In this document: positions 1-15,848 of the stretch, piece by piece
Position numbering within the stretch: position 1 is the first letter of the stretch
How the letters are laid out: each line of letters opens with the position of its first letter
Virus record (IMG/VR): IMGVR_UViG_3300033153_002190
Location: 1-22,315 of that record
Length of the DNA stretch: 22,315 nucleotides
Origin: a virus
Direction: 5' to 3' (one strand)
Notes under the pieces: generated by a model
Seen by the model: the letters and a program-made list of their open reading frames with translations, nothing else
Told to the model about the DNA's origin: nothing
The model's database searches: none
Program-made: the position numbers and the translations under genes

Positions 1-141
1 ATCAATTCTCCGCATTTCCCAAACACGGATAGAGCAGTCCGGCCAATACTTCTTGAAACTTTCGTAAATAGCATCGCCACCAGACTGCCCCCCCCTCATC
101 CGTGCGTTAGCGATAATTAATATTTTCAGGTTGTCTGCCAC
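1..141 (-). CDS. Glycosyltransferase-like protein, N-terminal fragment (runs off left edge)
   Basis: The first 47 codons of a leftward gene are visible, starting at a GTG that overlaps the end of the DUF2061 gene. The fragment reads KILIIANARMRGG, then SGGD, then AIYESFKKYWP. That is the hydrophobic first beta strand and glycine-rich loop seen at the start of GT-B (family 4-like) glycosyltransferases. It fits the neighbouring sugar genes. No strong ribosome binding site precedes the GTG, so translational coupling to the upstream gene is likely. The tenth to nineteenth codons contain an uninterrupted run of eight G on the coding strand (88-95). The catalytic half lies outside the window, so donor, acceptor and completeness are unknown. 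Confidence 0.5.
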   Translation of the reverse strand, partial: MADNLKILIIANARMRGGQSGGDAIYESFKKYWPDCSIRVWEMRRID

Positions 142-518
142 TTGATGTTGTCCCAAATAAACTCGTTCCAAACATAGATGAAATGCTTGATTCCAATATA
201 GGTAAGCGTTATCTTGCTCATTGTCTGAACGTCGCCTGTGATGCTCAGAGTGATAATCGCTAGAATGAAATTCCCCAAGATCGTTTCGTAGCATACTGCC
301 TTGAGAACTTTGCGTGTCATTCCCTGATAGTCAATGTGTTGCCAAAACCTTTCGTGGAGTGCAAACACGAAAAGAAAAACAAAGTGATGCAGGAACGTCA
401 CCCAGGATGTCGTAACCCAATTCCCGGTGTATGCGAACGTCACCGCCCCTAAAATTAAAACTCCAACCACGCGCCATATTGCGCTTTTAGTCCACGACCT
501 CATATTAGTTTCTATCAT
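126..518 (-). CDS. DUF2061 membrane protein, two tandem copies
   Basis: This 130-residue membrane protein resembles the DUF2061 family (function not established). The typical pattern is present: an RSWTKSAIWR start, a hydrophobic helix, a TGNW turn, a second helix and an HERFW ending (about residues 5-60). The second half repeats it in degenerate form, starting RKVLKAVCYE and ending in NEFIWDNIKW, so the protein is an internal duplication with about four membrane segments. The ATG at 518 is chosen because GGAGGA (526-531) lies 7 nt upstream; an earlier in-frame ATG at 542 has no such site. It sits 4 nt after the cytidylyltransferase stop, in the cargo operon. A role in the membrane steps of the glycan or lipid pathway is inference only. 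Confidence 0.7.
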   Translation of the reverse strand: MIETNMRSWTKSAIWRVVGVLILGAVTFAYTGNWVTTSWVTFLHHFVFLFVFALHERFWQHIDYQGMTRKVLKAVCYETILGNFILAIITLSITGDVQTMSKITLTYIGIKHFIYVWNEFIWDNIKWQTT

Positions 519-522
519 TTTT

Positions 523-936
523 TTATCCTCCGCATGGAACAATTTTTATTTGTTCTTTTATTTGAGTTGAACTCTGCCCGACGTAATAGGGCATCACCAT
601 AACTTTACCGCCTATCGTATTTATAAAGTTATTAGCAGGCATTTCATTGTGCGATGTGCTTTCAAATAAAATGTCCGGCCTAATATCTTTGCAATTAAGA
701 AGCGGGGAGTATTGGTCTTGGCACACGGCTATATCCACATACTTAATGCTGCCAATGATCTCTAAACGCTCGTCGAGGGGGAGAATCGGTTTCGGTTTCT
801 TTTCTGTAACCGCCGCTTCCGATAACACCCCGCAGATCAAAACGTCGCAGAGAGCCTTGCAGTTTTTAAGATGTAAAAGATGACCGCGATGAATAATATC
901 GCCCACCACATAACAATAACCAACTGTCTTTTTCAT
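523..936 (-). CDS. Cytidylyltransferase-like nucleotidyltransferase
   Basis: This 137-residue protein belongs to the HxGH nucleotidyltransferase superfamily, close to glycerol-3-phosphate and ethanolamine-phosphate cytidylyltransferases. These join CTP and a phosphorylated alcohol or amine to give a CDP-activated compound and pyrophosphate. The nucleotide-binding motif HRGH is at residues 16-19 and the C-terminal SSTQIK motif (family ISSTxI) at 122-127; PLDER near 53-57 is also typical. The length matches single-domain family members. The ATG at 936 overlaps the stop of the DegT-type gene, preceded by a GAGG-type site. With the CDP-alcohol phosphatidyltransferase in the same operon, the simplest reading is that it makes the CDP-linked substrate. 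The exact substrate cannot be read from sequence. Confidence 0.75.
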   Translation of the reverse strand: MKKTVGYCYVVGDIIHRGHLLHLKNCKALCDVLICGVLSEAAVTEKKPKPILPLDERLEIIGSIKYVDIAVCQDQYSPLLNCKDIRPDILFESTSHNEMPANNFINTIGGKVMVMPYYVGQSSTQIKEQIKIVPCGG

Positions 937-1562
937 TGATACGCCTCGATTTTTGACAGGTCTGGATAGCCCTGCGTCTTTGGATTAATGTCCGGCAGGG
1001 TCTTGTCCTTGATCGTATCGAATAACATCAACCCCCGCGCCGCCTGTTCAGGAGTGAGATACATATTGTAGCCCACCATTTCTATCTTGTCCTCTTTCAA
1101 CGGAACTTCGGATCGCCCGTCGAACCGTGCCTTCTTGAACCATTCATAGGCCACCCGGTCGTCGCAGAGAATCATCCCGCCCCTACCAATCGGAAGGTGT
1201 TTCTTTGCGTGAAAGGACAGGCAATAGAAACTGCCCTTGATATACATTCCCCATTTGAATCGAAGCGCGCTGTCATAGATTTTCGTATTTCCCAATTCAT
1301 AAGCACCGCGCCACTTTCGGTCACGAAACAATAAAACATATCCGTTGTGAATAATAGAGCAGGCCACGCCAGGATAAGTTCTTTTCGGAATGTCAACAGA
1401 TGTATATGAACGGATCATATAATCAGAATAATATTTCAAACACAGGAACAAAGCGTTGCAACAACTGTCAACCGCCACCGCATACTTCGACCCAGCGTAG
1501 TCTGCAATCGTTTTCTCAAACTCATTCACCGTGTCGTAAGCGGAAATGTTCTTCTTCCTCAT
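933..1562 (-). CDS. Short DegT/DnrJ/EryC1/StrS-type PLP protein
   Basis: This 209-residue protein resembles only the large domain of sugar aminotransferases of the DegT/DnrJ/EryC1/StrS family, which transfer an amino group to keto-sugars using PLP. An N-terminal EFEKTIADYAGSKYAVAVDS matches the substrate-entry region. D97 in IYDSAL and K121 in FHAKKHLPIGRGG sit where the PLP-contacting Asp and the Schiff-base Lys are expected. GYNMYLTPEQAARGL matches the family's GYN segment. Full-length members are about 370 residues; the C-terminal small domain is absent and the GEGG motif reads GRGG. The ATG at 1562 has AAGGA 7 nt upstream and lies inside the end of the phosphatidyltransferase gene (41-bp overlap). 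It is either a compact phage form or no longer a normal transaminase. Confidence 0.7.
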   Translation of the reverse strand: MRKKNISAYDTVNEFEKTIADYAGSKYAVAVDSCCNALFLCLKYYSDYMIRSYTSVDIPKRTYPGVACSIIHNGYVLLFRDRKWRGAYELGNTKIYDSALRFKWGMYIKGSFYCLSFHAKKHLPIGRGGMILCDDRVAYEWFKKARFDGRSEVPLKEDKIEMVGYNMYLTPEQAARGLMLFDTIKDKTLPDINPKTQGYPDLSKIEAYQ

Positions 1563-2277
1563 CGTCAAGTCCTTTCAATACTCTTAGAACGTGCAATCCT
1601 TTTTCCCCACCCAAATAAAAAGCATAAATCGAATACATCACAAACCATTTCACATTTGCAATCACAGTCATAATCATAAACATCAACGGCATCAGCCCAA
1701 AGACCGCACCGACGACAATGAAATATCGGTATGTATAAATCACCAGAGCGAAATAATCTGATGTCGGGTCGATCATTTGTTTTAGAATTATATTCTGCAA
1801 GCCAGGCTTCTCGTCCATACCGTTTCGGAATACCTCATTACCGCTTGCGCTATCAAAGCCGAACTTGTGGTTGTAATGAAACGACACAAAGTTGTTGGCT
1901 GAGTTTCCAATCGCAAACATCACCACCCATATCAAAGGCATTCCCATCTTGAAACACCCGATTGCAATAGCACCAAGCACCGCGTTCTGAACGATAACGT
2001 CAAAGCCTGAATCGAGCCAAGCACCCAACTTTGAATGTGTCTTATTAATCCTTGCCAAGTCGCCGTCAAGGTAGTCCAGAATCCCGTTGATTATACAAAT
2101 TCCTAACCCTGCCAGCCCAAACAAATACGTTCCCCGACTAAAGAACCAACACCCAAACGTCAACGTCAGGACATGGTTGAAGATCGTCACCTGATTCGCT
2201 GAGAACCCGCACTTTACCGCGAACTTAATGAACGGCAGTTTTATGTCTTGGTAGACAACTTTTGACCATTCTCGCAT
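1522..2277 (-). CDS. CDP-alcohol phosphatidyltransferase
   Basis: This 251-residue integral membrane enzyme transfers a phosphoalcohol from a CDP-linked donor to an acceptor alcohol, as in phospholipid head-group synthesis. The family signature D-x2-D-G-x2-A-R-x8-G-x3-D-x3-D is complete: D68, D71, G72, A75, R76, G85, D89 and D93. These aspartates bind the metal ions and carry out catalysis. Several hydrophobic segments follow. The ATG at 2277 is preceded by AAGGA and lies inside the end of the radical SAM gene upstream. The C-terminus is acidic (DDEEEE) and overlaps the next gene. Placed beside a cytidylyltransferase, it would consume that enzyme's CDP product. The lipid acceptor is unknown. 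Confidence 0.85.
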   Translation of the reverse strand: MREWSKVVYQDIKLPFIKFAVKCGFSANQVTIFNHVLTLTFGCWFFSRGTYLFGLAGLGICIINGILDYLDGDLARINKTHSKLGAWLDSGFDVIVQNAVLGAIAIGCFKMGMPLIWVVMFAIGNSANNFVSFHYNHKFGFDSASGNEVFRNGMDEKPGLQNIILKQMIDPTSDYFALVIYTYRYFIVVGAVFGLMPLMFMIMTVIANVKWFVMYSIYAFYLGGEKGLHVLRVLKGLDDEEEEHFRLRHGE

Positions 2278-3676
2278 AATTGTCCTTGTGCTTATAAAAC
2301 CCTAGTTTCTTCTGAATCGCCCGCCATGTGAAGAACAACTCGTTCTGAACCATAGCGTTTGCGATGAACCCTCTACCCGCTTTCAAATGAACCACCAGCT
2401 TGATAGCCCACATCGGTAAGAACTCCCACACCAGAGAGCCTAACGGGATTGTAACGAATGCCTTTGCATATTTGTTATAGAAATGCCCGGACTTGTTGCC
2501 CTGCTGATAGATGATGTGTTCGCCCCGGTTGATTTTGTCGATGTCATCATTGCAAAGATAGCGACACTTCAAGGCGTGTTCGTTTATCTTGGCCTTCGGA
2601 AAATATAAACACTCGTAGACGTTCACAACGTCCGGCTTGATTTCAGAATATAAAATATGCGACAACTCATTCGTCATGTCAGATTCAAACGGCAGGCCGC
2701 AGATGTGGTCAATCATCAACTTGATTCCGTGCTTCTTCACCCACCCGGCGGCTTTCTTAATCTGCTCGTTCGTTTCCTTACGGTCAAGAATCTCTTTCCT
2801 GTGATGCTCACACCCTGTCTGAATACCAATCCAGATTGTCTGACACTTCGACTTCGCCAACGCCTCGACCCGTTCTTCATCCATAGCGTTGACATGACCG
2901 AAGCAGGCGAAGGGCAGGTCAATCTTCTCTCGGTATTTCGGAAGAAACTCCAAGAGCCATTTCTTATCAAGCGTCAGTATATCGTCAACAAACAGAACCC
3001 TCTCCATCCCCCAATGCTTTTTCAGATGCTTGAGTTCCTTGATGCAACTGTCAACGGTTCTTCTCAGTTTGAGATAATGCCCGACTTCCCGGAGTTGTTG
3101 ATTGCCACAGAACGAACAGTTGAACGGGCATCCGTAGGAAGTCATAAACAACTGCGTGTGCCTATGCTCTGGTGGCAACTCGTTAAAGAAGTCCCACCGG
3201 GCAGGCCACAGATAGTCAGGGTCAAACTTCCCCCCGAAATGCTTTATCCCGTCACCCTGAACAACCTCGTCAATGAAAGCGTTTTCTTTCACGATCTCAG
3301 GAACAAGCGTCGGCATCGTTCCCCCGAAGATAATCTTGCACCCAACTTCTTTCTTCACCCTCTCTGCTAACGCAAGCCCCCATTGGTAGGTAGCAGACAG
3401 AACGGAGAAACACGCAACGTCCGGGTCAAACTCTTTCATTTCTTTTATCAACCAGTTCTGAATGCTGAATGCTTTTTCAAGGAAGCGGTTTCTTGAATAC
3501 CCCCTGGCGAACTGTTTTGGATCGAAGAATAGCCTGACATCGTGGCCCTGATTTCTTAGGTAGGACATAACGTAAGATGCCCCTGGATTCATGTCCTCGG
3601 CGACACAGAAGGCGAATTTTGTTCCTTTAGGATACATCGCAAGTTTTTCGTCTATGGGTTTTAATGTGTTCTCCAT
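2225..3676 (-). CDS. Radical SAM protein with B12-binding-like N-terminus
   Basis: This 483-residue protein has an N-terminal Rossmann-like region (about 18-150) of the B12-binding radical SAM class and a radical SAM barrel starting near residue 175. The iron-sulfur motif is canonical Cx3Cx2C: C183, C187 and C190 in SYGCPFNCSFC. Family members use cobalamin and S-adenosylmethionine for methylations, ring contractions and similar chemistry on lipids or natural products. The B12 His loop (DxHxxG) is not present, as in many of this class. The ATG at 3676 is the first ATG in frame, but the ribosome binding site is weak and it lies 50 bp inside the preceding HNH gene. An ATG at 3637 is an alternative. 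The 5' end may have been disturbed by the HNH insertion. Confidence 0.8.
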   Translation of the reverse strand: MENTLKPIDEKLAMYPKGTKFAFCVAEDMNPGASYVMSYLRNQGHDVRLFFDPKQFARGYSRNRFLEKAFSIQNWLIKEMKEFDPDVACFSVLSATYQWGLALAERVKKEVGCKIIFGGTMPTLVPEIVKENAFIDEVVQGDGIKHFGGKFDPDYLWPARWDFFNELPPEHRHTQLFMTSYGCPFNCSFCGNQQLREVGHYLKLRRTVDSCIKELKHLKKHWGMERVLFVDDILTLDKKWLLEFLPKYREKIDLPFACFGHVNAMDEERVEALAKSKCQTIWIGIQTGCEHHRKEILDRKETNEQIKKAAGWVKKHGIKLMIDHICGLPFESDMTNELSHILYSEIKPDVVNVYECLYFPKAKINEHALKCRYLCNDDIDKINRGEHIIYQQGNKSGHFYNKYAKAFVTIPLGSLVWEFLPMWAIKLVVHLKAGRGFIANAMVQNELFFTWRAIQKKLGFYKHKDNYARMVKSCLPRHKTAVH

Positions 3677-4022
3677 TACAAGAAAACAATTCAAGGTTCT
3701 CAGCCCTGTTATCTTTTATATCTCCGTTCTTATGGTGGACAACTTCCCCTCTTTTCAAACATCTTCCTAATCGTTCTTCCATAACAACGCGATGTTCACG
3801 AACATATCCTTTTGAATCGGACGACGGATGGCTCGGATTGTATCGAAGGACATAGCCCTTCTGTGATATTATCCTTCCACCCTTCCAAGATGGGTTTAGT
3901 TCACCTGACTTTGAAATGCTTATCCTTCTTCTTGTTTCTTGCGAAACGCTTTTGCCAAAGTTTGCTTTTCTCAGTTTTTCCGCAAACTCTTTCCCTCTCT
4001 TTTTTCCTTTAGGCCAGGGCAT
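3627..4022 (-). CDS. HNH homing endonuclease, embedded in cargo operon
   Basis: This 131-residue free-standing HNH nuclease starts MPWPKGKK, carries a basic NUMOD-like segment (about residues 5-45) and then the HNH_3-type core: EHRVVMEERLGR, EVVHHKNGDIKDNRAENLEL and EHIKTH (about 75-125). The paired His and the downstream Asn and His are the expected metal and catalytic residues. Such genes spread by cutting alleles that lack them. The ATG at 4022 has GGAGG 9 nt upstream. The gene overlaps the glycosyltransferase before it by 14 bp and the radical SAM gene after it by 50 bp. It is in the same orientation as the operon and AT-rich like the adjoining part of the glycosyltransferase. It is related in its core to the plus-strand HNH gene at 18268. 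Confidence 0.85.
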   Translation of the reverse strand: MPWPKGKKRGKEFAEKLRKANFGKSVSQETRRRISISKSGELNPSWKGGRIISQKGYVLRYNPSHPSSDSKGYVREHRVVMEERLGRCLKRGEVVHHKNGDIKDNRAENLELFSCNGEHIKTHRRKTCDVS

Positions 4023-5019
4023 TATCGTATTCCTCCAGAAATGTTGATGCGTTAGAACTACTGAAATTCTCTTTTGCAAATTGATATGCCTTCAATCCCA
4101 TCGACTTGTAATCTATTGTCAAGATTGCTTCCGCAAATGTTATTGGGCTAGGCTCAACAATCATCCCAAAACCTTTGACTTGTTCTGGTAGCGATCCCCT
4201 ATTACTTGCAATTATGGCACACCCGAAAGACGCAGATTCAACCACCACGCGAGTAATCCCTTCGTCATATATGCTAGGGATAACACAAATATCAGAACTT
4301 TTATAAATCTCTGCAAGGTTTTGTGGTTTAACATTCTCAACATAAACAAATTCAAACCTATCGCCATACAATATCTTCTCTGCATCCTCGACGATTCGCT
4401 TGCCTTTCTCTGGTATGGCGCGACCGACAAACAACACCCTAGTTTTACAGTTGTTTGGTTTGTCATCATGTCTGAATGTGTTGTCGGCGCGCCAATGATT
4501 AAACTTTCTTAATTTTTTCTTATGAACATAATAATTGTAAACATTGTCAAGGCCCGATTCGCCTTCGCAAAATATCAAATCCATTTTCTTAAATATCCAA
4601 TTTGCAATATCTTTTGTTGGTGATTCCCATTTATATAATGCCAGCAACGTCACAAACAACTTCGCCTTGCCCTTTATTATCGCCCCGATCAATCCGCTTA
4701 TCAATCCCTGTGCGTGGATAATGTCGAACTTCTCCCTGCGGTGTAAGCGATAAGCAGACCAAAGGAGCTTCGGGAATACATTTATAAAATTACGAACCGT
4801 CAATCCCTTCCAAGTCTTTTGCGGAAGTAGCCAGTTGATTCGGTAGACAGTCAGGTTCTTGCTGACTTCCATTTTCGGTGCGCCGCCTTTGAATGGCTGA
4901 TAGGTTAGCACCGTGACGTTGTGGTGCTTCCTTGCCTCATCCACAAGCCCTTGCGTGAACGATTCCGCGCCGCCGATATTCGGTGGATAAAACGGAGTTA
5001 ATATCAAAATCTTTTTCAT
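4009..5019 (-). CDS. GT-B glycosyltransferase, family 4-like
   Basis: This 336-residue glycosyltransferase would move a sugar from a nucleotide-sugar donor to a lipid-linked or glycan acceptor. The N-terminal domain begins with KILILTPFYPPNIGGAES, typical of family 4; HAQG sits near residue 103. The C-terminal donor domain has FVGRAIPEKG (R200, K205) and the E-x7-E motif (E253, E261). The ATG at 5019 shares an ATGA junction with the gene upstream. Base composition changes inside the gene: codons up to about residue 116 match neighbours, while the rest (about 4022-4670) is clearly more AT-rich, roughly 33-38% against 47-57% GC in 60-base samples counted by eye. The AT-rich part abuts the HNH gene. 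The fold looks intact. Confidence 0.85.
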   Translation of the reverse strand: MKKILILTPFYPPNIGGAESFTQGLVDEARKHHNVTVLTYQPFKGGAPKMEVSKNLTVYRINWLLPQKTWKGLTVRNFINVFPKLLWSAYRLHRREKFDIIHAQGLISGLIGAIIKGKAKLFVTLLALYKWESPTKDIANWIFKKMDLIFCEGESGLDNVYNYYVHKKKLRKFNHWRADNTFRHDDKPNNCKTRVLFVGRAIPEKGKRIVEDAEKILYGDRFEFVYVENVKPQNLAEIYKSSDICVIPSIYDEGITRVVVESASFGCAIIASNRGSLPEQVKGFGMIVEPSPITFAEAILTIDYKSMGLKAYQFAKENFSSSNASTFLEEYDNALA

Positions 5020-5798
5020 TTATATCTTGCCTGTTGAACCAGCATAATAACCCCGCGAGCAAACAGAAGCATGAACATAAGGATCGCCAGGTCAGGCCGC
5101 CGCAATAACCGTTTCCATTTCCCATTCTCAACGAACACCTGCCAGCACCGATAGCGGAATGTCACAAGCCTGTCGCCGGGATTCTTTCTTCGGTAAAGAT
5201 TCAAACTCTGCGCATAATAACATTTTTTTTTCAGGTATTTAATCAGGTCGCATTTGTCGTGGTGATAGAATGGATAGTCGCTCGTTGCAAAGTTCTTGTT
5301 CTTGATTTGTCTTTCCCAAGAACTATCTTCGACCCCATGCAGTTCTTCATCGAACAACGGGCAGTCCTTTGTCCTAATGAATCGCACCACATCAACCAAC
5401 GAGCCGTTATAGAACTGCCGTTCCCAATCCCTGAGATACCCGAAGAACCCCTCTGTTACAATGCGTTCGGGAATGTAAACGGCGGTTGGTTTTGTCGTCA
5501 TAAATGAACATTCTTCTCCTGGCTTCCAATTAAAGAAGTCCGAACCTTCTTCTATCTTCTCAACGCAATCAGCCAATAAGTCCGGGTGCAATCTCATATC
5601 AGAATCAATCCAGATTAAATATTCCCCTGTTGCTTTCTTAATCCCGAAGTTCCTCTGGTATGACCGTTCCCTGCCCTCGTCTACTACGATGATCTCCACG
5701 TTCTTATATGCAGAGTTCTTGATCGCTTCAATGCAACCAGCAACGTGGGGGTCGTTGTGAACAATAGGAATGACGCAACTGATTAAAGGCTCTTTCAT
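5016..5798 (-). CDS. GT-A glycosyltransferase, family 2-like
   Basis: This 260-residue protein has a GT-A fold of the family 2 type. ISCVIPIVHNDPHVAGCI (residues 6-23) is the opening strand and loop. VEIIVVDEG follows, and WIDSD (D65, D67) is the metal-binding DxD that holds the nucleotide-sugar. HGVEDSSWERQI near 155-166 fits the catalytic-base region. A hydrophobic segment near the C-terminus (ILMFMLLFARGVIMLV) could anchor it to the membrane. The ATG at 5798 is used rather than an upstream TTG because it forms a TGATG junction with the radical SAM gene and follows a GGTGG site. Donor and acceptor are not predictable. Confidence 0.85.
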   Translation of the reverse strand: MKEPLISCVIPIVHNDPHVAGCIEAIKNSAYKNVEIIVVDEGRERSYQRNFGIKKATGEYLIWIDSDMRLHPDLLADCVEKIEEGSDFFNWKPGEECSFMTTKPTAVYIPERIVTEGFFGYLRDWERQFYNGSLVDVVRFIRTKDCPLFDEELHGVEDSSWERQIKNKNFATSDYPFYHHDKCDLIKYLKKKCYYAQSLNLYRRKNPGDRLVTFRYRCWQVFVENGKWKRLLRRPDLAILMFMLLFARGVIMLVQQARYK

Positions 5799-7189
5799 CA
5801 ATCCACCGCCACCTTTCCAGAATCAACGACATCCCCGAATCGGTTAAAGATTTTCTTCGATAGCCGGAAATAATATTTCAGTTCGCTGAAACTTCTTATG
5901 CGTTTAAGTTTGTTCCAGATAAATTTCCAATGCCAGGCGATATTGTAAATCCCCTTCTGAAACTTCAAAACTTCCTTGAAATCATACTTCAACTTCACAA
6001 CAGGCTTGGTCATATCCCAATCGTTCCAGTCCTTTGTCAAGACAAGACCTTCTTCGTCAAGGTGCTTGTAAATCTCCGTTCCGGGGTAGGGCATAAAGAC
6101 CGTCGCCTGGGCCGATGCCGCCCAATCTTCTAACAACAACCACCGCACCATTTCATAGGTTCGCTTTTCTTCTTCGAGCGTTTCCCAGGGGTAGCCGAAC
6201 ATCACGGTCAAGTGATTCCAGATTCCTAACTGTGATGATACAATTAAATCCTGCGGCACGCGCTTAACGTCTAACCCTTTGTTGAGAAGATCAAGCGTGG
6301 ACTGGTTCGCGCTCTCAAATCCCCACAGAATAAATCTACACCCCGCCTTCGCCATTAACTTTAACTCATCTTCGGACAGCGCGCCAAACCTCATGTTGCA
6401 ACCCCATACGATATATTTTGTGTAACCTCTTTCAATCATTCCGTCGCAAAATTCTTTCAGCCACTTCCCAACAGGGAACGTCCCCGAATCGTCAAAGAAC
6501 TCAACGAACCCTTTATTGATTAACGATTCAATCTCATTCAGGCAATCGTCAACTGATCTCGTCATTGTCTGTTCGTGATAGGTCGCCCAGGCACAGAACT
6601 TACACCCAGGTCTGTGCCAACAGTCTTGAGAGAACATCGTGTAGGTCGCTGGAGTATATTTATAATTCCCGTTGTCGTAAGCGTAAAGCCACCACCGCGT
6701 CACGTCCCGGTTGATATGTGGAAGTTGTTTGTCCCAACGCTTCCCTGTAATCAAAGAGAAGGCTTCGTGATACCACTTCCCGCCCTTAAAAATATAATCT
6801 GCTTTGCACTTATCCCTCGCCTCAATCGGTAGAGCCGTCGCGTGTTCGCCTGTCAAAATGATTTTAATGTTCGGAATGTTCTCTTTGATTCCGTTGATGA
6901 TTTCGTAATACCGATCAATCAACATCGTGTGGGATTCAAAGACAATCCATTCAGGTTTCATTTCGACAATCACTTTGCCGAACTCTAAATCGTCAAGCCC
7001 TTCGGCAACTGCGTCGATCCACAAACATTCATAACCGGGTTCTGAAATTAACATCGAAACAAACGTGGCGGGAATAATGGGATAAATATATGTCGGGTCA
7101 CGAAAATATTGGGACTGACGATTTTGAGTTGCCTGGGCGTGACCTTTTTCTGACTTGCACGGTGGAACAGCGAATATGATCTTCGTCAT
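5798..7189 (-). CDS. B12-type radical SAM protein with unusual Cx5Cx2C motif
   Basis: This 463-residue protein has an N-terminal B12-binding-like region (about residues 35-150; LTGEHATALP in the middle) followed by a radical SAM barrel. The cluster motif reads C190-WHRPG-C196-KF-C199, that is Cx5Cx2C, instead of the usual Cx3Cx2C. Downstream barrel features are normal: EFFDDSGTFP, FILWGFESAN, VMFGYPWET and MPYPGTE. The C-terminus is basic and aromatic, with WKFIWNKLKR. The ATG at 7189 has GGGGAG just upstream, and the gene follows the dolichyl-phosphate mannosyltransferase-like gene after 22 nt. It is the second radical SAM enzyme of the operon and only distantly like the first. A substrate made or carried by the neighbouring glycosyltransferases is likely but unproven. 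Confidence 0.8.
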   Translation of the reverse strand: MTKIIFAVPPCKSEKGHAQATQNRQSQYFRDPTYIYPIIPATFVSMLISEPGYECLWIDAVAEGLDDLEFGKVIVEMKPEWIVFESHTMLIDRYYEIINGIKENIPNIKIILTGEHATALPIEARDKCKADYIFKGGKWYHEAFSLITGKRWDKQLPHINRDVTRWWLYAYDNGNYKYTPATYTMFSQDCWHRPGCKFCAWATYHEQTMTRSVDDCLNEIESLINKGFVEFFDDSGTFPVGKWLKEFCDGMIERGYTKYIVWGCNMRFGALSEDELKLMAKAGCRFILWGFESANQSTLDLLNKGLDVKRVPQDLIVSSQLGIWNHLTVMFGYPWETLEEEKRTYEMVRWLLLEDWAASAQATVFMPYPGTEIYKHLDEEGLVLTKDWNDWDMTKPVVKLKYDFKEVLKFQKGIYNIAWHWKFIWNKLKRIRSFSELKYYFRLSKKIFNRFGDVVDSGKVAVD

Positions 7190-7211
7190 CTATCTCCCCT
7201 TATTGACTACA

Positions 7212-7955
7212 TTATATCAAACTTTTCGGAGAATAAAACCTTTTTTTCATTTTTATCCATATCATTATTGTGTCGAAAAATGTCCTGAATATCGACCCGA
7301 ATCCAATCGCCCCTCTGTTCATTTGTTTCTTAATCGTGACCGGGGCATCTGCGATCCGATACCGCGAAGCCCTCAACGCAACAATCATTTCCAAGTCGAA
7401 AGCATACTGCTTGACGCTTACCTTGCTAATAATATCTTCGAGGACATACTTCTTGAATATCTTGATTCCGCATTGCGTATCTTCAAACTTCAAATCAAAA
7501 AGTGTGCGGATCAGAAAGTTATATCCCTGACTTATCACCCGGCGTAGCATTGTATATTCTGTCATGCTGAACTTGTGCCGCTTGTTTCCAATCACGCATT
7601 CAGCGTTGTAGAGTTCCATTATATTGTAAAGCGTTGAGATTTCTTTCGGGTCTATCTGTCCGTCACCGTCGAGAAATATAATATCATCATCGTCCTTCAT
7701 CGTGTAGACCATGCGCGTTAAAACATAGCCCGTCTTTAACGCAGACCCTTTTCCTCTATCAAATAAATTGTCGAACACTTCAATGTTATCGTTGTCAACT
7801 TCCTTGCACAGTTCCGGCGTGCGGTCTGTCGATCCGTCATTGATAACAATAATCTTGAACTCGTCTAAATTTGCAGAAGCCCATGCGTGAATCTCAAACA
7901 GGGTGTTTGCGATTGTTGATTCTTCGTTCTTAACTGGTAGGATAATTAAAGTCAT
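7212..7955 (-). CDS. Polyprenyl-phosphate glycosyltransferase-like GT-A protein
   Basis: This 247-residue GT-A enzyme resembles dolichyl/undecaprenyl-phosphate sugar synthases, which move a sugar from a nucleotide to a polyprenyl phosphate carrier. Seen are LIILPVKNEESTI (residues 3-15), VINDGSTD (37-44), the DGDGQ metal site (D96, D98), the FEDTQCGIKIF segment and the late QMNRGAIGF segment. There is no strong C-terminal transmembrane pair, so it matches the short soluble form. It is the first gene of the cargo cluster. Its AGGT ribosome binding site forms part of a base-paired stem in the leader (7964-8046), so its translation may be controlled by that RNA. It could supply a lipid-linked sugar for the glycosyltransferases downstream. 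Confidence 0.85.
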   Translation of the reverse strand: MTLIILPVKNEESTIANTLFEIHAWASANLDEFKIIVINDGSTDRTPELCKEVDNDNIEVFDNLFDRGKGSALKTGYVLTRMVYTMKDDDDIIFLDGDGQIDPKEISTLYNIMELYNAECVIGNKRHKFSMTEYTMLRRVISQGYNFLIRTLFDLKFEDTQCGIKIFKKYVLEDIISKVSVKQYAFDLEMIVALRASRYRIADAPVTIKKQMNRGAIGFGSIFRTFFDTIMIWIKMKKRFYSPKSLI

Positions 7956-7963
7956 AGAATTGA

Positions 7964-8046
7964 CCTGTGGGAAGGATGGGCGGTAGGATATATCTTATAG
8001 CCCTTACCGCAAGGACTTAACCCTTCACCAGAGCCTTCCCATCAGG
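7964..8046 (-). promoter_or_regulatory. Three-way-junction leader RNA before the cargo operon
   Basis: The 98-nt gap before the first cargo gene can fold, as minus-strand RNA, into a three-way junction. The closing stem pairs 8034-8046 with 7964-7975: 12 pairs with one bulged A. One arm is AAGGG/TCCTT (8011-8025) and the other GCGGTA/TACCGC (7980-7985 with 8005-8010), extended by GG/CC and TATA/TATA around a 3-nt loop. The 3' side of the closing stem ends in the AGG that serves as ribosome binding site for the gene starting at 7955, 8 nt away. I could not match it to a known riboswitch, ribozyme or tRNA. Stability was judged by eye. Confidence 0.5.
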
Positions 8047-10126: not shown

Positions 10127-10675
10127 TTATTTTGTAGGCCATACCTCTCCTCGTGCCTCATATTCACTTAAACCTTCACTCATTAATTTATAAAAATCTC
10201 TTTCTTTTTCGACTTCTCCTAGGGCTTCATAAATTCTTGGGGGCATTCCAGGGCCGATACAATCTTCGTGTGGGAACGGTCTATTGGGGTGCTGTTCGCA
10301 TACAAAATTACACCCTGTGTCCCACTTAAATAAAGCCTTTTCGTATAGTTTCATTTCTTCTAAATCCCATTGACCATGTTCGTCAGGCGCAAGGTCTATG
10401 GTTAATAAATAATTATCCCCATGATTAAAAACCTCCCCCTTTGGTAAAAATTTATGCCCAGGAGTTTTTCCTGCCCACACAATTATTTTCCCCTCTACGC
10501 CCCACCTATAATCGGTAGGGTCTATTTTGAATCTATTGTCTCTTAAATGTGTAGCATATTCGTGTTCTTCACCGTGTTTACAAACATAATTGTTCCCATA
10601 AGTTCCTCCCCAGGGCCACGACGTATCAAACCAAACCTTTTCTTTTGTTTTCTTGTGTATTCCGATTATTCGCAT
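10127..10675 (-). CDS. Hypothetical phage protein, 182 residues
   Basis: The soluble protein is rich in aromatic residues and glycine. It starts MRIIGIHKKTKEKVWFDTSWPWGG, given here only as its first segment, and ends in a helical, acidic stretch with SEYEARGEVWPTK. Three Cys and several His (KHGEEHEY, CNFVCEQHPNRPFPHEDC) could bind a metal. No signal peptide or membrane segment is seen. The ATG at 10675 has GGAGGTG immediately upstream, and this start region lies in a 60-bp sequence repeated at 11383-11442. I do not recognise the family. Confidence 0.55.
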   Translation of the reverse strand: MRIIGIHKKTKEKVWFDTSWPWGGTYGNNYVCKHGEEHEYATHLRDNRFKIDPTDYRWGVEGKIIVWAGKTPGHKFLPKGEVFNHGDNYLLTIDLAPDEHGQWDLEEMKLYEKALFKWDTGCNFVCEQHPNRPFPHEDCIGPGMPPRIYEALGEVEKERDFYKLMSEGLSEYEARGEVWPTK

Positions 10676-10732
10676 TACTCACCTCCCGTATTTAAGCAAA
10701 TATTGAGTTTGTTTACTCGCCATCGTCGTGCT
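10673..10732 (-). repeat. 60-bp repeated leader, copy A
   Basis: This 60-bp segment is repeated at 11383-11442 with 9 mismatches and no gaps. The central 26 bp (10691-10716) are identical. It includes the start codon and ribosome binding site of the gene at 10127-10675 and the end of the gene upstream. The core holds a CAAA/TTTG inverted repeat around CTCAATA, possibly an operator or RNA control site shared by both genes. Confidence 0.7.
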
Positions 10733-11175: not shown

Positions 11176-11385
11176 TTACACCGTTCTTTTTTCGCATTGT
11201 CTTATTATGGCTTCGTCCCCTGCAATTTCTTCTGCAAGCCCACAAAGGTAATCTTCCGTAAATCCAAAATTCTGTTCTATTAATATTGACAATATTAAAT
11301 CTTCATTCATTTCAATTTCACATTCTCCGACATCATATGCTGAAAATTTACCTTTCATATCTACTACGTCTTTTATTTTTGCCAT
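11176..11385 (-). CDS. Hypothetical small acidic phage protein
   Basis: This 69-residue protein starts MAKIKDVVDMKG at the ATG at 11385, with GGGAGG upstream inside repeat copy B. The middle is acidic (YDVGECEIEMNEDLILSIL) and the second half helical (FTEDYLCGLAEEIAGDEA). An in-frame start at 11409 lacks a ribosome binding site. No family is recognised. It shares its leader sequence with the 182-residue gene at 10127-10675, so the two may be co-regulated. Confidence 0.5.
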   Translation of the reverse strand: MAKIKDVVDMKGKFSAYDVGECEIEMNEDLILSILIEQNFGFTEDYLCGLAEEIAGDEAIIRQCEKRTV

Positions 11386-11442
11386 TACCCGCCTCCCATG
11401 TTTAAGCAAATATTGAGTTTGTTTACCCGACTACGTTGTGCT
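11383..11442 (-). repeat. 60-bp repeated leader, copy B
   Basis: This is the second copy of the leader found at 10673-10732; the identical 26-bp core is 11401-11426. It covers the start region of the gene at 11176-11385. Both copies sit in the same position relative to a start codon, which points to duplication of a control region rather than of a coding sequence. Confidence 0.7.
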
Positions 11443-11687: not shown

Positions 11688-11845
11688 TCTCCCTCTCCTT
11701 CCTTACGTTGGCTTGGCTGGGCAGGGATTTGACGAGTTTCGCATACTTGATTCGCTACTTACCCGTATAGTCACCCTGCATTTCCCGATTTAGTTGACTT
11801 ACGGTTTACATTACCTATTCTGCCACCAGACCAAGCCAACTTAAT
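11688..11845. other. Non-coding gap with short repeats
   Basis: No convincing gene is seen between the YopX-like gene and the hexamer repeat gene; only peptides of 8 and 13 codons without good ribosome binding sites occur. It contains GTTGGCTTGG (11707-11716) and its inverted copy CCAAGCCAAC (11831-11840), which could pair across the gap. No consensus promoter or terminator was found. Confidence 0.4.
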
Positions 11846-12085
11846 TTACCTCGACCTCGACCTCGACCACGACCACGACCTCGACCACGACCTCGACCTC
11901 GACCTCGACCACGACCTCGACCACGACCACGACCTCGACCACGACCTCGACCTCGACCTCGACCACGACCACGACCCCGACCCCGACCCCGACCTCGACC
12001 ACGACCACGACCTCGACCACGACCTCGACCCCGACCCCGACCTCGACCTCGACCATATAGAGCCAATATAATTACTTGCTACCAT
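11846..12085 (-). CDS. Hexamer-repeat-encoded Ser-Arg/Trp/Gly protein
   Basis: The ATG at 12085 has AAGGAGG 5 nt upstream, one of the best ribosome binding sites in the window. The predicted 79-residue protein has a short head (MVASNYIGSIW) followed by alternating serine with Arg, Trp or Gly, because each repeat unit reads TCG AGG, TCG TGG or TCG GGG. It stops right after the repeat. All three frames of this strand are open through the array: a second frame (11815-12066, TTG start, no site) gives pure Arg-Gly, and a third gives Glu/Val/Gly-Val. The ribosome binding site favours the Ser frame, while unit variation is silent only in the Arg-Gly frame. The function is unknown, and the annotated frame is uncertain. 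Confidence 0.4.
   Translation of the reverse strand: MVASNYIGSIWSRSRSGSGSRSWSRSWSWSRSGSGSGSWSWSRSRSRSWSRSWSWSRSWSRSRSRSWSRSWSWSRSRSR
11849..12052. repeat. 34-unit hexanucleotide array, CCNCGA
   Basis: Thirty-four consecutive 6-bp units CC-N-CGA occur without indels. N is T, A or C (never G) and the other five positions never vary. The order of N from 11849 is TTTAATATTTATAATA, then TTTAACCCTAATATCCTT. Blocks such as TAATAT recur three times, which suggests growth by slippage or recombination of multi-unit blocks. There is no stop codon in any frame on the minus strand. Confidence 0.95.
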
Positions 12086-12095
12086 ATTAGCCTCC

Positions 12096-12470: not shown

Positions 12471-13142
12471 TTATTCGTCAAAATGTTTGTATTCTTTCCG
12501 ACCCCGGTTATTGACAGGCTTCGCTTTTGCGTCCGCGTCAGATCGCTTCTCCCAAGTCCTGACCGCCGCGCGCCAGTCTTTCATCTTGTTCTTGCCGATC
12601 ATCCAGTTCTTCGCTTCGTAAAAGTCAATGAACGCTTCCGGGTCTATCTTGCCGCCGCGATCTTTGCAGTAGGTGGACACTTCTTTAACGTTCGGCTTTT
12701 TGAATTTGTTGTTTCCCCCATTATTTACTTTACTATACCTTACCTTTACTATACCTTGACCCCTACCAAGCCCCTCGCTAGGGGCTTCAAAGGGGCTTAT
12801 GATTCCCTCTGATTGAAGTATCTTCATAATGCTTAAGTGACAGATATTATTGGGGTTAAGAGAATCTAAGGAATCGACCTTCTGCTGAAACAAAACGAAC
12901 TTCTTTATGAACCACTTGCTGTTAATAACTTTTATCCTGTCAGCAAAAACGGAGATTGTTTCTTCTTCCGGGAATGTTTCTTTTATAGAGAACTCAGCCA
13001 GTTCAAAGTCAACCTTCCAAATACCAGCATGATCGCAGTTGTCCAGAATGTAGAGCCAAAAGGCCTTGTATTTAACAGGAAGCCTTCTGAACCAGGGGTC
13101 AGACCATTTGCCGGAATCTGTAAACCTATTCGCCATTGTCAT
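12471..13142 (-). CDS. Phage replication initiator-like protein
   Basis: This 223-residue protein resembles phage replisome organisers. An N-terminal winged-helix-like domain (FTDSGKWSDPWFRRLP, then KAFWLYILDNCDHAGIW) is joined by a low-complexity linker (about residues 120-160). A C-terminal DPEAFIDFYEAKNWMIGKN and DWRAAVRTWEKR segment is typical of lambda O/DnaT-like partner-binding regions. Such proteins bind the origin and load the host helicase. The linker-coding DNA carries iterons and a hairpin (12728-12798). The start is ATG 13142 or ATG 13136; neither has a close ribosome binding site, and the start lies just beyond a terminator-like hairpin, so expression may be attenuated. The consensus promoter is at 13267-13294. 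Confidence 0.7.
   Translation of the reverse strand: MTMANRFTDSGKWSDPWFRRLPVKYKAFWLYILDNCDHAGIWKVDFELAEFSIKETFPEEETISVFADRIKVINSKWFIKKFVLFQQKVDSLDSLNPNNICHLSIMKILQSEGIISPFEAPSEGLGRGQGIVKVRYSKVNNGGNNKFKKPNVKEVSTYCKDRGGKIDPEAFIDFYEAKNWMIGKNKMKDWRAAVRTWEKRSDADAKAKPVNNRGRKEYKHFDE
12728..12798. other. Candidate replication origin inside initiator gene
   Basis: Two identical 14-bp repeats (CTTTACTATACCTT, 12728-12741 and 12744-12757) lie 16 bp apart in an AT-rich tract. Next comes a perfect 8-bp stem, AAGCCCCT/AGGGGCTT, around a 4-nt loop (12768-12787), then a third copy of AGGGGCTT (12791-12798). The segment encodes the low-complexity linker of the initiator. Lambda-type phages place their origin iterons in exactly this part of the initiator gene. 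Only two full iterons are seen, fewer than lambda's four. Confidence 0.5.
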
Positions 13143-13150
13143 AATTAAAT

Positions 13151-13209
13151 AAAAATCCCCAGGCACCGTGAGGAATTAAGACCTTCTCGCGAGAGGCAGT
13201 CGCCTGGGG
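13151..13209 (-). terminator. Terminator-like hairpin upstream of initiator gene
   Basis: An 8-bp GC-rich stem, CCCCAGGC/GCCTGGGG (13202-13209 with 13157-13164), is followed on the minus strand directly by ATTTTTATTT and preceded by a run of eight A. The 37-nt loop can fold further into a small hairpin with a GCGA loop. It lies between the consensus promoter and the initiator start, so it could end most transcripts early. It may also work on the plus strand, with a T run 6 nt after the stem. Confidence 0.55.
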
Positions 13210-13244
13210 GAAATCTTTTTTTTATTTGTGATTTTTGTTTTCAT
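13176..13244 (-). CDS. 22-residue basic leader peptide (candidate)
   Basis: An ATG at 13244, just behind GAGAGGTGG, opens a 22-codon frame reading MKTKITNKKKISPRRLPLARRS. It starts about 17 nt after the predicted transcription start, and its codons run through the 5' arm of the terminator-like stem. It stops in the hairpin loop (13176-13178). A ribosome finishing it would therefore keep the stem open. It is strongly basic, like arginine-rich RNA-binding peptides, but no homology is claimed. The ribosome binding site can be sequestered by pairing with 13189-13200. Confidence 0.4.
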   Translation of the reverse strand: MKTKITNKKKISPRRLPLARRS

Positions 13245-13257
13245 TACCACCTCTCGC
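13189..13257 (-). promoter_or_regulatory. Long-range stem crossing the terminator stem
   Basis: On the minus-strand RNA, 13246-13257 (GCGAGAGGUGGU) pairs with 13189-13200 (ACUGCCUCUCGC) over 12 bp, two of them wobble. This stem holds the leader peptide's ribosome binding site. It crosses the 13202-13209/13157-13164 stem with only one unpaired base between them. The two can form an H-type pseudoknot or act as alternatives. Confidence 0.45.
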
Positions 13258-13266
13258 ATTTCTTCC

Positions 13267-13294
13267 ATTATAGCGAAGATCAGCGAAATGTCAA
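13267..13294 (-). promoter_or_regulatory. Perfect sigma70-type promoter (replication)
   Basis: TTGACA (13289-13294) and TATAAT (13267-13272) are separated by 16 bp on the minus strand; both boxes match the consensus fully. Transcription should start near 13261. The spacer and -10 contain TTCGCT-GATC-TTCGCT, two direct repeats 10 bp apart that could bind a regulator, with a GATC site between them. It lies right after the HTH gene stop and serves the leader RNA and the initiator gene. Confidence 0.85.
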
Positions 13295-15820: not shown

Positions 15821-15848
15821 ATTATATGCTTTTCCTTTACCTTGTCAA
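15821..15848 (-). promoter_or_regulatory. Perfect sigma70-type promoter (recombination unit)
   Basis: On the minus strand TTGACA (15843-15848) and TATAAT (15821-15826) are separated by 16 bp. Both boxes match the consensus, and the spacing equals that of the promoter at 13267-13294. It lies between an intrinsic terminator and the exported protein gene. It should drive the exported protein, small gene, exonuclease and ERF operon. Confidence 0.85.

Follow-up and report, generated by a model that had tools for sequence, protein, structure and literature searches.

A Leader with Crossing Stems Before a Phage Replication Gene, a Candidate Translation-Gated Attenuator

Promoter, Leader and Gene Order

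What is the function of a short leader in which a consensus promoter is followed, about 110 nt further on, by a terminator-like stem placed immediately before a replication gene? The question is raised by a locus at 13.2 kb of the window, the stretch of 22,315 nucleotides of viral DNA that was analysed (IMG/VR record IMGVR_UViG_3300033153_002190, positions 1 to 22,315). A preliminary description had proposed that it is either a switch controlling phage replication by attenuation or a small RNA in its own right.

The leader element, read from the minus strand, has a small HTH gene (13465–13295, minus strand) as its upstream neighbour and is followed by the replication gene rep (12471–13142, minus strand), whose conserved start is ATG 13136, with a further in-frame ATG at 13142. 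The promoter TTGACA-16-TATAAT (13294–13267, minus strand), announced as perfect, indeed matched the consensus at 12 of 12 positions, with a predicted start at about 13260. From the positions of the promoter and of the U tract, the leader RNA is predicted to span 13149–13260 (minus strand), or about 110 nt if terminated. A single other 12/12 promoter was present between positions 8000 and 22,315, at 15848–15821. As it is identical in hexamers and in the 16-bp spacing, TTGACA-16-TATAAT is probably the phage's own promoter type. A promoter with identical hexamers and spacing, again 12/12, was found in a related phage, L110.

The order at 13.2 kb, promoter then terminator-like stem, is reversed at 15.9 kb. 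There, a strong classical terminator (15897–15864, minus strand) is followed at once by the 15848–15821 promoter, which drives a lysozyme-like gene, an exonuclease, Erf and HTH genes, and no crossing stems were present 3' of this promoter.

Two Crossing Stems at the Leader

Stem S1 pairs 13258–13246 with 13200–13188 (12 bp and a terminal G-U). Its 5' arm, TGCGAGAGGTGGT (13246–13258, minus strand), comes directly after the A of ATG 13259 and holds the SD-like GAGGTG (13253–13248), so that the ribosome-binding site of the leader ORF lies under 12–13 bp of stem, as had been claimed. Its 3' arm, ACTGCCTCTCGCG (13188–13200, minus strand), is within both the leader ORF and the loop of S2. Stem S2 pairs 13209–13201 with 13165–13157 (8 bp and a G-U) and is followed by ATTTTTATTT. 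The S2 5' arm, CCCCAGGCG (13201–13209, minus strand), is within the leader ORF, 0–1 nt before the S1 3' arm. The S2 3' arm, TGCCTGGGG (13157–13165, minus strand), holds GGGG, the sole SD-like sequence before ATG 13142 of rep. Directly after S2 comes the terminator-like U tract TTTTTATTT (13147–13155, minus strand), in agreement with the earlier reading of a GC stem with a T tract just before the replication gene. On the plus strand the S2 palindrome (13156–13227) is also followed by T8, and bidirectional termination could occur there; plus-strand genes were not evident.

The arms are ordered S1a-S2a-S1b-S2b with 0–1 nt from S2a to S1b, which is the layout of an H-type pseudoknot. The first loop measures 36 nt and is A-rich, and the third measures 22 nt. 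In stacking energy, S1 ranked third and S2 fifth among the 1849 minus-strand helices with a span of at most 110 nt. Whole-window shuffling reproduced a crossing pair as strong and as close in 4 of 100 trials. With the position ahead of the gene fixed, none of 2000 shuffles matched the crossing of S1 and S2, and the same count was obtained for L110 and for L332 (8 of 2000 for L337); S1 alone, with S2 given, had p = 0.002 in the window. Nested folding of the whole leader was unremarkable (z −1.3) because it has to pick one stem, and the two alternative folds are each stable (−21.5 and −25 kcal/mol). The signal resides in the crossing pair, not in the nested fold.

The modest nested z-score, together with the fact that the S1 arms form a DNA inverted repeat, is what speaks for chance structures or DNA operators (the TCTCGCGAGA palindrome) beside an ordinary promoter. 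The operator reading was rejected since the window holds no other copies of the palindrome, and the recurrence described below, family-wide and with replaced sequences, is against chance as well. This explanation is already largely refuted, and we give it almost no weight.

A Leader ORF Spanning Both Stems

The leader ORF (13176–13259, minus strand) starts at ATG 13259 (27 codons) or at ATG 13244 (22 codons) and stops at TAA 13178–13176. The 22-codon version is the leader peptide of the preliminary description (13244–13179, product MKTKITNKKKISPRRLPLARRS), and it is in the same frame as rep. ATG 13244 is the SD-led start, and ATG 13259, at the predicted 5' end and directly before S1a, occupies the place of the start codon in the relatives. 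The ORF spans S2a and S1b, and the S2 5' arm (13209–13201) is thus inside it, confirming that translation of the peptide would cover the 5' arm of the terminator-like stem. The rep start at 13136 has no usable SD; most early genes of the window have one.

In the window and in L110 the 0-frame leader ORF ends before the S2 3' arm, 42–60 nt from the rep start, and any coupling to rep is consequently less direct; in L223 and L230 the stop comes earlier still. Programmed −1 frameshift sites consist of a conserved slippery heptamer located 5–9 nt before a stable structure. In the window, the heptamer A_AAA_AAG (13215–13221, minus strand) is in frame 5 nt before S2, and from it a −1 frame would continue until a stop slightly beyond the rep start. 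In L110, the heptamer U_UUU_UUA overlaps the beginning of S2, with the −1 frame likewise uninterrupted as far as the rep start. No slippery heptamer was present in the remaining members whose leader ORFs are short. That a −1 frameshift in the leader delivers ribosomes to rep is speculative.

The Layout Recurs Before Replication Genes of Other Phages

Similarity searches with the 165-nt leader DNA retrieved no relative in phages, plasmids or viral collections; matches in 384 Omnitrophota genomes were rejected as A-rich chance matches. The product of the neighbouring HTH gene had no relatives in a protein search. The window rep protein belongs to the phage families PHROG 15768/28809, and its C-terminal part is common to a lambda-O-like replication protein. 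Its direct relatives are 46–55% identical, the nearest full-length one (L084) being in an Omnitrophota MAG. Among 106 rep relatives, a first scan with strict thresholds gave no elements, and a later detector applied to the same set showed that L057 and L071 carry one. The closest rep relatives (L002, L003, L006, L084, L191, L193 and L194) are without the leader element, which is therefore gained and lost.

Phage L110 was found through the neighbouring exonuclease. Its rep has only the C-terminal part in common with that of the window, the N-terminal domain being unrelated and lambda O-like. The arrangement before it is the same and the stem sequences are different: S1 is TTCGGAGG/CCTCCGAA with the SD inside, the leader ORF has 28 codons, and a 14-bp S2 is followed by T7 and by the rep gene. 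A search with the L110 rep then gave a matching layout ahead of many rep genes. Among distinct rep upstream regions (dereplicated by ungapped identity below 75%), 29 of 77 beat all of their 100 shuffles, compared with 4 of 110 regions taken from ahead of other genes on the same contigs. In all, about two dozen further replication-gene leaders show the arrangement. The control rate is overstated if anything, since one of the four, at L313:1086, has the look of a genuine element preceding a different gene. The detector considers uninterrupted helices only and, for this reason, misses members and mis-registers some (L232, L236). The contigs compared are metagenomic, and the whole analysis rests on sequence. 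A clear case is L332, an Omnitrophota genome, with an S1 of 11 bp and an S2 of 16 bp followed by T8.

The sequences of S1 and S2 differ almost everywhere across the family, and complementarity is kept. The family stems as a whole cannot be aligned. In those few pairs of phages that can, the changes were compensatory: in S2 of L254/L310, 8 of 15 pairs were changed on both sides with 100% pairing (against 3 of 500 shuffles), and in L219/L245 3 of 16 pairs showed a compensatory change. Covariation, whose absence had been set as a refutation of the proposal, is thus seen. With S2 fixed, S1 reached p ≤ 0.05 in 18 of 29 members and the 0.01 level in 9 of 29; some S1 calls (L245, L310, L219) are uncertain because about 11 of the 29 S1 helices are individually non-significant. 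An ATG ORF starting at S1 and open through S1b was found in 14 of 24 members, where shuffles gave a mean of 2.4 and at most 7; in 8 of those 14 the stop lies between −15 and +8 relative to the rep start (shuffle 0.5, maximum 3). The crossing geometry before many phage replication genes, with stems replaced yet complementary, lends support to the attenuation switch first suggested. Between the two options of the preliminary description, covariation and the recurrent leader ORF favour a leader acting in cis over a stand-alone small RNA, although the terminated leader RNA may also act in trans.

Control in trans is an alternative. The terminated leader RNA, through S1b in the S2 loop, would pair with S1a of other copies and so set immunity or copy number, in the manner of the P4 CI RNA or Gifsy-1 IsrK, and a fast change of S1 would be a change of specificity. 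S1 does differ in nearly every phage with its complementarity kept; in P4, an RNA brings about premature termination that represses the replication genes, and IsrK, a small RNA with its own promoter and terminator, is also extended by read-through into a small ORF to which translation of the following gene is coupled (PMC4825925). However, cis pairing alone also predicts the turnover of sequence and is well suited to the close crossing geometry. Moreover, S1 8-mers occur near the elements at about the chance number plus the two arms, so the further copies of the S1 segment, at two or more target sites as with seqA/seqC, were not found. We regard control in trans as unlikely.

The sequence after S2 bears on another reading, in which control is translational only: the knot masks the start of the leader ORF together with the sole SD-like sequence before rep, no termination takes place, and the U-rich stretch serves only to leave the rep start open. 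This reading draws on the position of both SD-like sequences inside stems, on a leader ORF stop at the rep start codon in several relatives, and on the poor terminators that some tails make. On the other hand, the T fraction in the 12 nt after S2 was 0.50 in the family versus 0.24 in matched controls, and the U-rich stretch directly follows S2 in most members, 18 of 28 having a tail at least half T, versus 7% of controls. The leaders of L110, L223 and L230 contain in addition a second hairpin with a T tract. Control at translation without termination therefore seems to us rather improbable, a little more so than control in trans.

The element is not confined to rep, since copies precede other early phage genes, sometimes more than one per phage. 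The same layout was found before early genes, some of them not rep, at L053:1000–1330 and 5060–5400, L057:300–520 and 2820–3030, L110:4200–4300, L037:1790–2000 and, as noted, L313 at about 1086. In L053, for example, ATGAGACCCAGCGC/GCGCTGGGTCTCA occurs with GGAAAGCCC/GGGCTTTC and T7. Elements within one phage had no common sequence. Several elements before different early genes (L053, L057, L110) would suit a common trans-acting factor, as in lambda Q-type antitermination, which combines a promoter-proximal terminator, a Q binding element and a Q gene. The leader would then be a promoter-proximal terminator awaiting a phage antitermination protein, with the small ORF and S1 incidental. The promoter-proximal terminator layout is seen, but the elements of one phage share no sequence, and the conservation of both S1 and its ORF exceeds what chance would give; we consider this explanation very improbable.

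Other Sequence Features

Other features were observed in the window and in the contigs compared. In the window, two 68-nt copies (10665–10732 and 11375–11442), 82% identical, each extend over the end of a gene, the intergenic DNA behind it and the RBS of the following gene, and an array of 12-bp units (GACCTCGACCAC-like) at 11800–12093 is open in several frames. Radical SAM and glycosyltransferase genes are present within 126–7955 of this phage record. They may be phage-borne rather than host flank, because in L082 (3970–4683) a glycosyltransferase directly follows a rep-like gene. In L302, L304 and L305, repeated TGATAAC palindromes surround a promoter region near position 1400 and are probably operators or iterons. 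Six Omnitrophota loci (L336, L338, L340, L344, L346 and L347) have Rep_O-like genes with a common leader, CAGTCCTATT...GGGGCTGG...CCAGCCCC-T6, which ends directly at the start codon. It is possibly a further attenuator; Rfam gave no match at this leader.

A Model of Translation-Gated Attenuation

The structure of crossing stems itself is well supported. What it does, namely termination, dependence on translation and coupling to rep, we infer. Our preferred explanation, which we judge somewhat more probable than its alternatives taken together, is a translation-gated transcription attenuator in the form of an H-type pseudoknot before the phage replication gene. In this model, the strong promoter would produce the leader RNA constitutively. 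If no ribosome promptly loaded on the ORF at the 5' end, S1 would shut over the ORF start region once its 3' arm had been transcribed. S2 would then form across S1, and S2 with the U tract would stop transcription before rep, giving the RNA of about 110 nt. A translating ribosome would sit on the S2 5' arm and the S1 3' arm, both of which are within the leader ORF, so neither stem could form and the polymerase would read through. A ribosome stopping near the rep start would then aid initiation on rep, which itself has little or no Shine-Dalgarno sequence. In the window and in L110, ribosomes would have to reinitiate over 30–60 nt or shift to the −1 frame on the slippery heptamers to reach rep. 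What tips the balance may be how fast ribosomes load, a protein of the phage or an RNA acting in trans. Points against the model are the weak tail after S2 in L254 and L310, an S2 loop that is long for a terminator, the early stop of the leader ORF in the window, L110, L223 and L230, the S1 helices that fall short of significance, and the absence of the element from the closest rep relatives.

A phage commits itself at its replication genes, and, to our knowledge, P4 is one of the few systems in which RNA-level control of these genes has been described. If the model is true, the element would represent a new cis-regulatory RNA family in many unrelated-looking phages, some of them in little-studied groundwater bacteria such as Omnitrophota. 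Such a family is invisible to sequence search because the pairing alone is conserved. The element provides a search recipe: a promoter, a start codon at S1, S2 crossing S1, a U tract and a gene start. A bolder proposal, to which we grant only a small chance, is that of an undescribed and widespread class of phage RNA, in which a 5'-terminal start-codon stem and a terminator stem are interlocked to sense ribosome loading within a second or two, the private stem sequences possibly serving also as a code of RNA immunity among phages that co-infect a cell or reside in it.

Comparison with Known Systems

At the gathering threshold, Rfam 15 gave no match at the window element or at 20 loci, most of them carriers, and a permissive search yielded nothing beyond chance hits. 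Covariance models cannot hold a pseudoknot. In a limited search of the open literature we encountered no description of a pseudoknot leader of phage replication genes. Type III toxin-antitoxin systems are recognized by tandem pseudoknot repeats before a ToxN-like RNase; a ToxI identity was rejected, as the element has no repeats and the downstream protein is of the phage families PHROG 15768/28809.

In attenuators of the pyrBI/trp type, a ribosome translating the leader ORF over the terminator 5' arm blocks termination. The element is similar in that, ahead of the regulated gene, the 5' arm of its terminator-like stem falls inside a leader ORF, in the window as well as among the 14 of 24 members mentioned above. 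Unlike in pyrBI/trp, the ribosome start region is in a second stem crossing the terminator, and no series of codons for a single regulated amino acid is common to the family. The IncI/IncB repY-repZ system also places a replication gene under a leader peptide, and a pseudoknot and translational coupling take part in it. In these plasmids the pseudoknot is an activator of translation and is accompanied by the antisense Inc RNA, whereas in the element the knot holds a terminator-like stem and would be inhibitory.

A pseudoknot with far-upstream sequence controls translation initiation at a small ORF in the timP mRNA (PMC11228461). That pseudoknot is needed for translation, of a type I toxin, and has no terminator in it, in contrast to the terminator-like stem in the knot of the element. 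In Gifsy-1, one promoter gives the short terminated IsrK RNA and a read-through mRNA, and, as proposed for the element, a small ORF has a hidden RBS and the next gene is translated by coupling (PMC4825925). The target of IsrK is an anti-repressor, not a replication gene, and its hidden ORF is downstream of the terminator; the word "pseudoknot" is absent from the text of that paper. In P4 immunity (CI RNA, seqA/seqC), the replication operon is under premature termination control (PMC4825925), and, as proposed here, replication genes are controlled via leader termination by complementary leader segments. A processed RNA pairs with two sites in P4, seqA and seqC, whereas in the element a single S1 pair crosses the terminator stem and a leader ORF is located at S1; the two have no sequence relation. 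The P4 CI RNA and Gifsy-1 IsrK are the nearest functional parallels of the element.
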